DNA of 64,000 nucleotides from Clostridia bacterium (lineage in GTDB: Bacteria > Bacillota > Clostridia > Christensenellales > Borkfalkiaceae), in assembly GCA_017508485.1 (NCBI GenBank), contig JAFVYV010000005.1:1-64000 (forward strand), written 5' to 3'. Position 1 is the stretch's first letter, and each line of letters opens with the position of its first letter. Below, in pieces: positions 35,993 through 60,121 of this stretch. The position numbers were made by a program, and so were the translations under genes. Below the pieces are notes generated by a model. The model did not search any database and was not told where the DNA came from. It saw nothing but the letters and a program-made list of their open reading frames with translations.

Positions 35993-37294
35993 TTATTGTT
36001 CAATTCCATCGTAAACCTTAACGTGTCTTATTCTAGTATTTGATAGGGTTAAGCAATAAGCAAAACCAATAACAGATGCTAAAATTAAAGGAGAAGATGA
36101 AGAAATAATTGTTAAAATCACACAAATAAGTGAAATTATTAGTAATACTAATAAAACGTAATCGGTAAACAACACCTTATAAGATTTACAGGTTATCAAC
36201 GTAAATATGGTAAAAATAAAGGCAATTAAGGTTGCAAACATTAAAAGACCAGATACCGTGTAATAAATGTAAATGCTGTAATAAGGGTTAGTTATGTCTA
36301 ACACACCAAAAGTTTTAGCGCAAATAATTAAGAAAACAACGGTAACGCTAAGCGCAACTGCAGACATAAAACTATATCTTGAAAAAAGTTCTTTATAATA
36401 TGCTTTAAAACCTAAGGTAAAATTACCTTTTTTATGAATAGTTTTTGATTTTTCTTCAAACAATAAGTCAACGTTTAATACTCTTATAGAAATAAAGAAA
36501 ATCGCAAAAATAGTTAAAACTGCGCAAACGGTAATATTACGAACGTGCGCACCAAAAACTATCAATAAGCACCAAATAGCAGGTACGGAAAGCAGTAAAC
36601 CTATAAAGAAAAGGTCTAAAAAGCAAATCTTTTTTCTGCTACAGTCAATAGATGCGTATAAAACGAATATAGCAATAACTATAAAAATTGAATAGTAAAC
36701 AGACTTATTTAACTCTTTTAATACGATAAAATTCTCAAACAAATTGTGTTTCATAATGTAATAAAAAATTATGATAACAAGAATTGAAACGAGAATAATA
36801 GGTAATGAAGAGAACTTTTTCAAAGTGTAAGATAAGTAGGTTTTAAGGTTAGTAATTGTGTAAACGGTGTTAGGAACTTTAACCTTGTTATAAAAAATAA
36901 TTCTAAGCGCAATAAGCAGTGCCACAACAAAAGTTGCGCCTAAAAGCACAAGGTAAACGTACCATCTAGAAAAGCCTACCGTAGCCATTAAAAATATGGT
37001 GTAAGAAAATAGGAAAAGCCCAACGCCTAAAAGGAAAACGTCCAAAAAGGAAATTGTGTTATGTTTAATTCTTATAGAAACTATTGAAAAAATAAACAGT
37101 AAAATAAAGGCAGAAACGCCAATAAAGTAATAAAAGATTTTAGGGGAAGAAGTAACTCCGTCCCAAAAACCGTAAAAGTTTAGTAAATAAAAAACGGTAA
37201 ATAAAAGCGCACTAACAAAAGGTGCTAAAAATACCGAAAATTTACTAAAAAGGTCTTTAAAATATAAACAAAATCTATTTTCTTTTTTACACAT
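35993..37294 (-). CDS. Membrane protein made of three repeated four-helix units
   Basis: A 433-residue integral membrane protein of unknown function with about 12 helices. The same unit appears three times: landmarks KDLFS 13-17 / LKKFS 158-162 / KELFS 301-305; FLDVF 83-87 / FLDLF 225-229 / FTDYV 376-380; and RII 131 / RVL 271 / RIR 421. Each unit is about 140-150 residues: an amphipathic start, two helices, a polar loop with the F-x-D landmark, two more helices. It has its own promoter (37313-37341), ribosome-binding site AGGTGA, and a shared terminator, so it is monocistronic. Not similar to any family I can name. Confidence 0.6.
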   Translation of the reverse strand: MCKKENRFCLYFKDLFSKFSVFLAPFVSALLFTVFYLLNFYGFWDGVTSSPKIFYYFIGVSAFILLFIFSIVSIRIKHNTISFLDVFLLGVGLFLFSYTIFLMATVGFSRWYVYLVLLGATFVVALLIALRIIFYNKVKVPNTVYTITNLKTYLSYTLKKFSSLPIILVSILVIIIFYYIMKHNLFENFIVLKELNKSVYYSIFIVIAIFVLYASIDCSRKKICFLDLFFIGLLLSVPAIWCLLIVFGAHVRNITVCAVLTIFAIFFISIRVLNVDLLFEEKSKTIHKKGNFTLGFKAYYKELFSRYSFMSAVALSVTVVFLIICAKTFGVLDITNPYYSIYIYYTVSGLLMFATLIAFIFTIFTLITCKSYKVLFTDYVLLVLLIISLICVILTIISSSSPLILASVIGFAYCLTLSNTRIRHVKVYDGIEQ

Positions 37295-38675: not shown

Positions 38676-38702
38676 TTATTTATAAAATAAGGAGATAAAA
38701 TT

Positions 38703-40592
38703 ATGGAATTTGGTTTTATAAAAGTGTTTTCAGCATCGCCAAAAGTGAGGCCCACCGATATTGATTTTAACAAGGAAGAAGTGCTTAAAAAAATATTTTT
38801 GGCTAATAAAATGAGAGCAAAGGTAATAGTTTTTCCTGAACTAACCTTAACTTCATCAACTTGTGGCGACCTATTTAACTATTCAGTTTTACAGCAAGGC
38901 GTACTAACGGCGATAGAAGAAATTAAAGAAAAAACGGCAGATATTGACGCCCTAATTTTCATAGGCGCACCAATAAAAGTGGACGGCATACTTTACAATA
39001 CTGCAGTAGTTATTAAAAACGGCAAAGTGCTTTCTATAATTCCAAAAAGGCACACTTTTAAAAACTTAAAACCTTTAGAAGAAAGGGCATTTTCAATCTA
39101 TCAAGGGGAAAACAAGGTAATAGATTTTTTAGGCGAACAAGTTTTGTTTGGCAACAAAATTATTTTTAAAGACAAGGTGGTAAAAGGCTTTACTCTTTCA
39201 GCAGAAATAGGGGAAGACTTGTTTTCACTAACACCACCGTCAACTAACCACTCGCTAAACGGCGCAAATATAATATGCAACCTATCAAGTTTAATTGAAA
39301 TTGTAGGTAGAAGAAAGGAAAGGTTAATAGAACTTTCATCTCACACTTCAAAAACTTTAACAGCATATATTTACTCAGAAAGTGGCGACGGCGAATCAAC
39401 TGCAGACGGCGTTTATGCAGGAAACAGTATGATTTTTGAAAAGGGCAAATGCTTAGCAGAAAGTAAACCTTTTGAATATAAAGACTTGATAACGGAAGTT
39501 GATATTGATTATTTAGAAGGTAAAAAACAAAATCTTCAAAAGTTAGAAAGTGGCTATGATACCGTTTACTTTGAAAGCAAAATTGAAAAAACGGCTATCA
39601 CAAGACAGTTCAAAAAAACACCGTTAGTTCCTGAAAGGGAAGAAGAGTTAGAAAATATTTTAAGAACTCAAGCAGAAGGGTTAAAAAAGAGAGTTATTCA
39701 CACCTACGCAAACAAAATTGTACTAGGCTTATCAGGTGGACTTGACTCTACTTTAGCCTTAATAGTTGCAGTAAAGGCTATGGAGTTAGCAGGGCGCGAT
39801 ACGAAAGATATTTTAGCAATAACAATGCCTTGCTTTGGCACTACGAGTAGAACGCTTGACAACTCAATTTTACTTGCAAAAGCCTTAAAGGTAAGCCTTA
39901 AAAAGGTTGATATAAGTAAATCGGTTGTAAGACACTTAAAAGATATCGGCCACGAACAAAACAACTTTGATATTGCCTATGAAAACGCACAAGCAAGGGA
40001 AAGAACGCAAGTTTTAATGGATATAGCAAATATGAACGGTGGTTTAGTTTTAGGTACTGGCGACCTATCTGAATTAGCGCTTGGCTGGGCAACCTATAAC
40101 GGAGACCATATGTCAATGTATTCTGTAAACGCAGGTGTGTCAAAAACGCTTGTCCGTGCGCTTGTGGAATATACGGCAAATAAGGAAAGGGGCAAACTAA
40201 AAGCCGTTTTACTTGATATTTTATCAACTCCAGTAAGCCCTGAACTACTTCCTTCAAAAGAAGATGAAATTGCACAAAAAACGGAAGACGTAGTAGGACC
40301 ATATATTTTACACGACTTCTTTATGTATAATATGATAAAACGTGGCTACTCACCTAAAAAAGTTTACTATATAGCAGTGCAAACTTTCAAAGGGGACTTT
40401 GATGAAAAAACAATTTATCATTGGCTTGAAACTTTTATAAAAAGGTTCTTTACGCAACAATTCAAACGTTCTTGCGTACCAGACGGGGTAAAAATCGGCT
40501 CACTTGGTTTTTCACCACGCGGGGACTTTATGATTCCAAGCGACGCCACCCGAACCTTATGGCTAAAAGACCTAGAAAGCATAAAAGAATAA
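38703..40592 (+). CDS. nadE: NAD+ synthetase with a glutaminase domain lacking its cysteine
   Basis: A 629-residue two-domain enzyme that amidates deamido-NAD. The N-terminal nitrilase-type domain (1-~290) keeps Glu46 (VFPELTL) and Lys115 (IPKR), and also the structural CGDLF (54-58) and GDGEST. At the position of the nucleophile, where relatives have CED, this protein reads IGED with Gly170 (codon 39210-39212), so the glutamine-hydrolysing triad is broken. The C-terminal synthetase is intact: PP-loop LGLSGGLDST, TGDLSELALGWATYNGDH, and SPELLP. It likely uses free ammonia. Own promoter, ribosome-binding site AAGGAG and terminator. Confidence 0.93.
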   Translation: MEFGFIKVFSASPKVRPTDIDFNKEEVLKKIFLANKMRAKVIVFPELTLTSSTCGDLFNYSVLQQGVLTAIEEIKEKTADIDALIFIGAPIKVDGILYNTAVVIKNGKVLSIIPKRHTFKNLKPLEERAFSIYQGENKVIDFLGEQVLFGNKIIFKDKVVKGFTLSAEIGEDLFSLTPPSTNHSLNGANIICNLSSLIEIVGRRKERLIELSSHTSKTLTAYIYSESGDGESTADGVYAGNSMIFEKGKCLAESKPFEYKDLITEVDIDYLEGKKQNLQKLESGYDTVYFESKIEKTAITRQFKKTPLVPEREEELENILRTQAEGLKKRVIHTYANKIVLGLSGGLDSTLALIVAVKAMELAGRDTKDILAITMPCFGTTSRTLDNSILLAKALKVSLKKVDISKSVVRHLKDIGHEQNNFDIAYENAQARERTQVLMDIANMNGGLVLGTGDLSELALGWATYNGDHMSMYSVNAGVSKTLVRALVEYTANKERGKLKAVLLDILSTPVSPELLPSKEDEIAQKTEDVVGPYILHDFFMYNMIKRGYSPKKVYYIAVQTFKGDFDEKTIYHWLETFIKRFFTQQFKRSCVPDGVKIGSLGFSPRGDFMIPSDATRTLWLKDLESIKE

Positions 40593-58465: not shown

Positions 58466-60121
58466 TTGGTTGACAACTTATTAACGGCGCAAAGTGTATG
58501 GAAAGATTTTGCTACCGAAAGCGTTACGGAAGAAATAATTGAAGAAAATATAAAAGAAGGGGTAGTTGTTAAAAAAATATACCTTTCAGGTAGAGAAGTA
58601 GGGGTAGATTCTGTAAAAATTTACGGAATAGTTGTACACCCAAAAAAGATGACCGACCTACCTGGACTTTTAGTTTTTGGAGAAATTGGCAAACCTATAG
58701 AAGAAGCCCTTTTAATTAAACTAGCAAAAAAAGGGTACTGCGTATTTTCACCAGACTTTGGTGGTAAAAGTGAAGAAGAGTATTTTACACTCTATCCAGA
58801 AATAATATCTTACGCAAACTATACTGAATCAAAAGACAAACTTTTAGAAGTAAAGGAAAGCGCAAGAAAGACTTGTTGGTACGAATGGGGTTGCGTTGCA
58901 AAACACGCCTTAAAATATCTTAAACAAAACCACGCGTTAGTAGGTGCGTTAGGAATTAAAAAGGGTGCAGAAGTTTTATGGCACTTAGCAGGAACTGAAA
59001 GTTTAGATGCAGTAGTTTTTGCCTTTGGCACGGGTTGGCACACTTATAAAGGCAAGTTTAAGTTTGCAAATCAAGACGCCACCACTTTTGATGAAGTTTA
59101 TTATAAATATTTAGCAGGTTTTGAACCACAATCATACGCACAATACGTAAAAGCCCCAGCCTTAATACTTTCAGCAACTAATAACGACAGTTATGATTTT
59201 GAAAGAACTTACGATACTTACATAAGACTTGACCATTGTGGCTATAAGGCAATCAACTGTTCAGTTGGCACGGGCGACGTGTTAGATTACGGCTCTTACC
59301 GTGATATAGAAATTTTCTTAGCAAAAAACTTAAAACAAACGGAAGACTTTTTACCAAAAGAACTTGACTTTGAAGTAGAAGAAAATAACGGTAAAATTAA
59401 AATAACCGTTACTCCAGATGAACAAGGGTTAAAGAATATAGAAGTTTACAAGGCAGAAAACGTGTTAAATCCTACCTTACTTGGCTGGACAAAGATAGCA
59501 GATTTAGGTAAAGAAAAGGTGTATGAATACGAAATTAAAAACACGGTAAACAAACTTTTCTTTATGGTAAAAGCAGAATACGAAAACGGTTTTACCCTTT
59601 CATCAGGCGTAATTGCAAAAGACGTTACAACAAACCTAATTGCAAGAAGGGTAAATATGCTTTTTTCTAACGTAAAAAAGGTAAACAAATTTTTTGCATA
59701 CGTTTCTGAAGATGATGAGTTTGTAAACTCAAGCATCATAACGGAAGATATTAAGGGTATGAGGATAGAAAAAGGCCCAATGGCAATAAAGGGCGTTTAT
59801 TCTGAAACTGGCTTAATTTCATACTCACTAAATAACGAAGACGCAAAGTTTGACGAACACTCTATTTTAATGCTTGACTTATACAGTAAAGAAGATAACG
59901 AAATAGAAATTGAACTTATAGTAAACTATAAAAAGGAAAACCAAACTTCATATTTTTTCAAAAAAGAAGTTCAAGGTAGCAACATTTGGAGAGATTTTAG
60001 AATAGAAGGCGTAAGACTAAAAACTTTAGAAGGAAAGCCACTACAAAGTTTTGACAACGTTAACGCAATAATTTTAAGATTTAAAGATAAATACGTAATA
60101 AACAACGTAATGTGGATATAA
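58466..60121 (+). CDS. Alpha/beta-hydrolase-fold protein, probable pseudo-enzyme
   Basis: A 551-residue protein. Residues ~50-310 look like a dienelactone-hydrolase/acetyl-xylan-esterase type fold (LPGLLVFGEIGKP, VFSPDFGGKS, YEWGCVAKHALKYL). The nucleophile elbow reads GIKKG (163-167), so Lys165 replaces the catalytic Ser/Cys. Residues ~320-551 are beta-rich without catalytic motif. Starts at TTG: GGAGG (58454-58458) is seven bases before it, and the product is in frame from there. No signal peptide. Perhaps a carbohydrate- or ligand-binding, non-catalytic protein; function unknown. Confidence 0.55.
   Translation: MVDNLLTAQSVWKDFATESVTEEIIEENIKEGVVVKKIYLSGREVGVDSVKIYGIVVHPKKMTDLPGLLVFGEIGKPIEEALLIKLAKKGYCVFSPDFGGKSEEEYFTLYPEIISYANYTESKDKLLEVKESARKTCWYEWGCVAKHALKYLKQNHALVGALGIKKGAEVLWHLAGTESLDAVVFAFGTGWHTYKGKFKFANQDATTFDEVYYKYLAGFEPQSYAQYVKAPALILSATNNDSYDFERTYDTYIRLDHCGYKAINCSVGTGDVLDYGSYRDIEIFLAKNLKQTEDFLPKELDFEVEENNGKIKITVTPDEQGLKNIEVYKAENVLNPTLLGWTKIADLGKEKVYEYEIKNTVNKLFFMVKAEYENGFTLSSGVIAKDVTTNLIARRVNMLFSNVKKVNKFFAYVSEDDEFVNSSIITEDIKGMRIEKGPMAIKGVYSETGLISYSLNNEDAKFDEHSILMLDLYSKEDNEIEIELIVNYKKENQTSYFFKKEVQGSNIWRDFRIEGVRLKTLEGKPLQSFDNVNAIILRFKDKYVINNVMWI

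Follow-up and report, generated by a model that had tools for sequence, protein, structure and literature searches.

Introduction

Nicotinamide adenine dinucleotide (NAD) synthetases (NadE) have been sorted by architecture: two-domain enzymes, with their signature elements, are associated with glutamine use and single-domain enzymes with ammonia use, and the signature elements have been proposed as a means of classifying metagenomic NadE sequences as glutamine or ammonia users (PMC3376133). Here we describe a two-domain NadE in which glycine occupies the position of the glutaminase catalytic cysteine. Its gene lies in a 64,000-nucleotide stretch of DNA, hereafter the window, from a Clostridia bacterium (Christensenellales; Borkfalkiaceae; GCA_017508485.1, contig JAFVYV010000005.1, positions 1-64,000 of the forward strand). 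We consider it highly probable that this protein is a two-domain NAD synthetase likely to use ammonia only, with a dead glutaminase half serving as a predicted scaffold of the oligomer.

In solved octameric NadE the nitrilase domains form a core bearing the synthetase domains, and free ammonia is an accepted substrate of the two-domain enzymes; the human NAD synthetase is listed with values of 0.45 with glutamine and 0.49 with ammonia, in a column that we take to be kcat/Km (PMC6946656). Loss of the nucleophile has been described in other amidotransferases. Carbamoyl-phosphate synthetase I of terrestrial vertebrates is described as having no catalytic cysteine and using ammonia only; the triad persists in the bullfrog and a tree frog (PMC7657897). 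The crenarchaeal PurF' protein lacks its N-terminal cysteine, ammonia use being offered as one possibility (PMC3261824). A literature search on dead-glutaminase amidotransferases and on NAD and ammonia in this group, with most subscription journals outside its coverage, found no earlier report of a two-domain NadE without the cysteine.

Results

The nadE gene (38703..40592, plus strand) is an intact open reading frame with an ATG start, encoding 629 amino acids plus stop, and is preceded by a likely ribosome-binding site, AGGAG, read directly at 38690..38694. No other NadE match occurs in the assembly, which is a draft (17 contigs, 86.9% complete). The product scores 706 bits against NF002730 (NAD(+) synthase; cut-off 473) and carries both PF00795 (CN_hydrolase) and PF02540 (NAD_synthase) by Pfam. 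At the family level it thus belongs with the type F enzymes of NF002730/PRK02628, defined by a fused nitrilase and NAD synthase scoring above the cut-off. The nitrilase-type glutaminase domain spans residues 1-270 (38703..39512) and is predicted to be inactive from alignment, Pfam, conservation and a structure model; the synthetase domain spans residues 310-629 (39630..40589) and is intact by Pfam and a conservation scan.

A phmmer comparison of the protein with solved structures returned, as the top three Protein Data Bank sequences by score, Mycobacterium tuberculosis NadE with and without a Cys-to-Ala change, and 3dla was taken as reference (M. tuberculosis residues are numbered as in PMC6946656, one below the chain index of the alignment script). 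The window segment AEIGEDLF pairs with VEICEDMF, and Glu52, Lys121 and Cys176 of the reference correspond to Glu46 (38838..38840), Lys115 (39045..39047) and Gly170. The first-pass annotation had placed a glycine at the nucleophile position, encoded by GGG, two changes away from TGT; the alignment and a direct reading of the codon at 39210-39212 bear this out. The Cys-Glu-Lys triad of type F enzymes is therefore broken. As had also been noted, Glu46, Lys115 and the GDGEST motif (residues 228-233, 39384..39401) are present, Gly230, Glu231 and Ser232 of the motif being retained equally in NadE forms with the cysteine (Cys forms) and without it (non-Cys forms). The contention that the nitrilase half aligns well holds around these elements and fails at the equivalents of Tyr58, the YRE loop and Ser203. 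The only cysteines of the window glutaminase domain are Cys54, Cys192 and Cys250; none aligns with the nucleophile position or lies near the nucleophile elbow, which rules out a replacement cysteine in this protein. Cys54 is frequent in both groups (223/262 Cys forms, 75/101 non-Cys forms). Some cysteine lies within five columns of position 170 in 18 of the 101 non-Cys forms, so a stand-in may be possible in individual ones.

Decay extends to the glutamine pocket. A list of positions was drawn up from the glutamine-binding and tunnel-mouth residues given in PMC6946656, to which we added the positions of Ser203 and Arg209; it was compiled after alignment excerpts had been viewed. The same letter is found in 263 Cys forms versus 101 non-Cys forms at frequencies of 99% versus 11% for the equivalent of Tyr58, 97% versus 16% for Tyr127, 98% versus 21% for Glu129, 96% versus 3% for Phe130, 97% versus 34% for Glu132, 100% versus 31% for Glu177 and 99% versus 9% for Ser203. 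Within the YRE loop, 40-42% of the non-Cys forms have gaps at four of the six positions; positions 128 and 204 are unconserved even in Cys forms. On the synthetase side of the tunnel, Lys644 is kept, Arg576 less strongly. In the window protein, the constriction-1 residue Tyr58 is replaced by Ser52 (38856..38858) and Ser203 by Leu197 (39291..39293). What remains of the YRE loop (residues 121-126, 39063..39080) reads NLKPLE against YREFYE: Tyr127, Glu129 and Phe130 have become Asn121, Lys123 and Pro124, and the last Glu alone, Glu126 at the position of Glu132, is kept. The protein thus lacks most of the YRE loop and the constriction-1 residue expected of a type F NadE and, besides the catalytic cysteine, 6 of 13 other pocket residues.

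Counted over 13 pocket positions, 262 Cys forms show no deviation (241 sequences), one (18) or two (3), and the 101 non-Cys forms show 4 to 13. These ranges did not change when rows at least 97% identical were dropped (231 Cys and 91 non-Cys forms left). Since eleven of the positions had been selected on the very rows that were counted, a separate draw of genomes from across the class provides the fairer test. With one near-duplicate dropped, its 79 Cys forms deviate at none (57), one (15), two (5), three (1) or four (1) of the positions and its 12 non-Cys forms at 2 to 12, the partial genes L284, L343 and L355 scoring their gaps as deviations. Here the two groups meet: only two other changes accompany the Gly of L273, and L348, a Cys form, deviates at four positions. 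The loss at L273 is possibly recent. Among the other sequences, the glutaminase domain is strongly eroded in the NadE frames L043, L044 and L045 (559-600 amino acids), which may represent late stages of decay. Where Cys forms sit among non-Cys rows of the family tree (L004, L142, L143, L157, L165, P0050, P0098), they carry 0 or 1 deviation, which fits glutaminase activity having been retained rather than regained. Throughout these alignments, cysteine loss and pocket decay go together, nearly in all-or-nothing fashion.

An all-position scan considered every position at least 95% conserved in 262 Cys forms and classed it, in non-Cys forms, as collapsing (at most 50%) or kept (at least 90%). Of 51 such positions in the glutaminase domain, 12 collapse, position 170 being among them by construction, and 20 are kept; ten of the twelve are on the pocket and tunnel-mouth list, positions 119 and 224 having been off it. 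The synthetase domain has 112, of which 108 are kept and one collapses, in agreement with the earlier view that this half is intact. The exception is Asp608 (40524-40526; Asp656 in M. tuberculosis), which is Asp in 42 and Glu in 41 of the 101 non-Cys forms and is kept in the window. Asp656 has reportedly been examined as a coupling residue; a literature search aimed at D656A in M. tuberculosis NadE found no paper. The SGGLDS motif (residues 344-349, 39732..39749), which we take to be the ATP-pyrophosphatase motif, is invariant in the alignment of homologues.

The altered glutaminase domain is modeled as a full nitrilase fold, and the ratio of nonsynonymous to synonymous substitution rates (dN/dS) in this domain, 0.17 in a single pair formed by the window and a genus-mate, indicates purifying selection. 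Apart from Gly170, no newly conserved residue was found in the glutaminase domain of non-Cys forms; the idea of a new domain function marked by such residues is thus unsupported.

Loss of the nucleophile is not confined to the window. Of 7997 homologues scored, the best 120 listed, which include the window once, comprise 64 with Gly at residue 170, 51 with Cys and 5 with Ser; among the best 80 loci kept from a genome collection the residue is Cys in 77, Gly in 2 and Ser in 1. A search of 201 genomes of the window's family gave a NadE match in 170, and the residue could be read in 149 (Cys 123, non-Cys 26). The cysteine is missing from both sequences of the window's genus (2/2, window included), from the only one of genus g4 (1/1), from all of genus g9 (8/8; Glu46 kept in three, Lys115 in one), and from 11/23, 3/24 and 1/2 sequences of genera g7, g10 and g18; the remaining genera read all Cys. 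The class-wide draw (196 genomes, 162 with a match) yielded 93 further long matches, 92 of them readable and 12 without the cysteine. By these counts the loss is recurrent and occurs in several families of the class, a wider scope than that of the first-pass annotation, so that the window is not a one-off case.

In a FastTree phylogeny built on the synthetase domain (455 rows, of which 113 lack the cysteine), at least 23 changes between Cys and non-Cys states are needed; 17 are needed without the class draw (367 rows). Quick IQ-TREE trees gave 10 changes on 149 family rows and 11 on 77. The exact number is soft because deep FastTree branches are weak, and such counts by themselves cannot separate loss from gain. 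A single origin in the family was rejected: a tree grouping the 26 non-Cys rows had a log-likelihood 353 lower (77 rows; approximately unbiased test, p-AU 4e-52). On the evidence of these trees, the losses are independent and have occurred many times over in relatives.

In the neighborhood of nadE, an RlmL-like methyltransferase lies upstream and a Fur/PerR-type regulator and rubrerythrin lie downstream; Pfam and NCBIfam scans of window neighbors identified no glutamine enzymes. Elsewhere in the window are a 433-amino-acid open reading frame that looks hydrophobic-rich and has no Pfam match (35993-37294, minus strand) and a 551-amino-acid one without NCBIfam match (58466-60121, plus strand).

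Discussion

The proposal that the glutaminase domain is not catalytic has held up: with the nucleophile missing, the pocket decayed, no stand-in cysteine and no new conserved residue, in a domain whose Gly is common to relatives and which is under purifying selection, the picture is one of a non-catalytic glutaminase on an intact synthetase. To our knowledge, no familiar chemistry yields glutamine hydrolysis in such a domain without the nucleophile. Because the nucleophile is missing and two-domain NadE accepts free ammonia, the window enzyme would draw ammonia from solution; its ammonia dependence is a prediction that follows from known chemistry. In the mechanism we propose, ATP would adenylate deamido-NAD in the synthetase domain and the adenylate would be attacked by cytosolic ammonia, not by ammonia tunneled from glutamine. 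By likeness to the solved octamers, the nitrilase domain would be kept as the core carrying the synthetase domains. Surroundings rich in ammonia, where a glutaminase gives no advantage, may have driven the loss.

Several points weigh against this interpretation. Glu46, Lys115, Glu126 and Glu171 are still present and could form a residual ligand site. The enzyme activity is itself a prediction from sequence, and the scaffold role is predicted by homology to the octamers. Ser, by its nature a possible weak nucleophile, stands at the nucleophile position in 8 of the 101 non-Cys forms. As to the driver, the only association is a raw one, strong in itself, that is not significant after phylogeny has been taken into account. 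A strong class I amidotransferase match is missing (best E-value, or expectation value, weaker than 1e-30, or none) from 22/26 non-Cys and 15/123 Cys genomes, and the ammonium transporter gene product AmtB is found in 0/26 and 47/123. In a paired test on six independent pairs from supported branches, lack of class I differs in about 1.6 pairs and AmtB in about 1.5, always in the same direction, neither significantly. Glutamine synthetase was rejected as an explanation of the loss, a match being found in 26/26 non-Cys and 114/123 Cys genomes.

The retained residues and the purifying selection would also suit a pseudoenzyme with a new job, in which the dead domain is a regulatory sensor that binds glutamine or another ligand uncleaved and gates the synthetase. 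We regard this as improbable, given that pocket residues vary freely among the 101 non-Cys forms (the YRE gaps, and the low figures for Ser203 and Glu177 given above) and that Gly170 is the only newcomer among conserved residues. Even less credence is due to a separate glutaminase supplying ammonia in trans, as in the two-subunit NAD synthetases that are known (PMC3376133). Apart from NadE, the window assembly has a single nitrilase-family match, a standalone protein of 221 amino acids (L254:1345-2010, minus strand, contig C3, genome G000) in which Gly stands at the nucleophile position and FGFNG in place of the expected FPE; the one other nitrilase match of the genus-mate again has Gly. A nitrilase-type glutaminase in trans is thus rejected within the 86.9% complete window assembly and the genus-mate, other families such as PF04960 not having been sought. 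The standalone protein looks like a conserved pseudo-nitrilase; its nucleophile column reads Ala 68, Gly 30, Cys 7 and others 16 in a 121-row alignment. Finally, although the assembly is a draft, it is scarcely conceivable that Gly170 is a stray allele or an error of sequencing or assembly, because the NadE of the genus-mate (L002), 80% identical, also has GGG, many of the best homologues have Gly, and the window pocket has six further changes; the first-pass annotation had already called a single sequencing error unlikely.

As for other amidotransferases of the genus, the class I domain PF00117 has no match in the window genome or the genus-mate (G001), versus matches in 14/14 control genomes; 7 of the 201 family genomes have none. 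The class III amidase PF01425 is likewise unmatched in both, with 12/14 controls matching. The only PF13522 (class II) match in each genome of the genus is a below-cut-off, PurF-like protein (in the window genome L255:658-2079, minus strand, contig C3; TIGR01134 174 bits, cut-off 350). It starts with Met-Gly-Gly-Phe-Phe-Gly directly after a ribosome-binding site, identically in the genus-mate, so that Gly occupies the N-terminal Cys position in both. As all 120 best homologues listed also have Gly there, the cysteine-less PurF is an older subfamily trait and not specific to the genus; this subfamily is perhaps ammonia-dependent. No intact glutamine amidotransferase was found in the window genome among the four glutaminase families searched, PF00310, PF13537 and others lying outside the search and about 13% of the genome possibly missing. 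The same genome has a match to glutamine synthetase (E 9e-20); AmtB was not found in it. It is conceivable, if rather doubtful, that the genus gave up glutamine as amide donor, with no working amidotransferase of any class and with its remaining amidating enzymes, NadE and PurF, being former amidotransferases that use free ammonia; the suggestion derives from the absence of PF00117 and PF01425 and from the Gly at the nucleophile of the PF13522 match and of both nitrilase proteins in each of its two genomes.

Since the defining triad was examined and found broken, the window NadE should not be filed as glutamine-dependent. Judged by its sequence, it would act as an ammonia-dependent NadE though descended from glutamine-dependent ones. 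Dozens of proteins seen here retain the two-domain architecture without the glutaminase nucleophile and pocket, and the published rule equating the two-domain form with glutamine use (PMC3376133) would fail in several families of a class. Such bacteria are predicted to need free ammonia for NAD synthesis. The losses, from the seemingly recent one at L273 to heavily eroded domains, would constitute a natural experiment in how an amidotransferase is converted to ammonia use and why its dead domain stays.

Compared with the glutamine-dependent NadE of M. tuberculosis (3dla, 3szg, 6ofc; PMC6946656), the window protein lacks the counterparts of Cys176, Tyr58, Ser203 and most of the YRE loop; like it, it has the extended C-terminal segment, residues 586-625 aligning with the M. 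tuberculosis C-terminus. With the single-domain, ammonia-dependent enzymes of the Salmonella type (PMC3376133) it shares a predicted use of free ammonia only. It differs from them in having a complete nitrilase domain and, at the C-terminus, the extension that glutamine users typically carry, and the full nitrilase fold sets it apart from type N NadE, which has no glutaminase domain. Crenarchaeal PurF' resembles it as an amidotransferase homologue without a nucleophile for which ammonia use is one possibility, in a different enzyme with a different class of glutaminase. The nearest analogy we found is carbamoyl-phosphate synthetase I, where a former glutaminase domain is likewise retained; there the glutaminase class and the pathway are other ones, whereas for NadE the loss appears to have taken place many times independently in bacteria.
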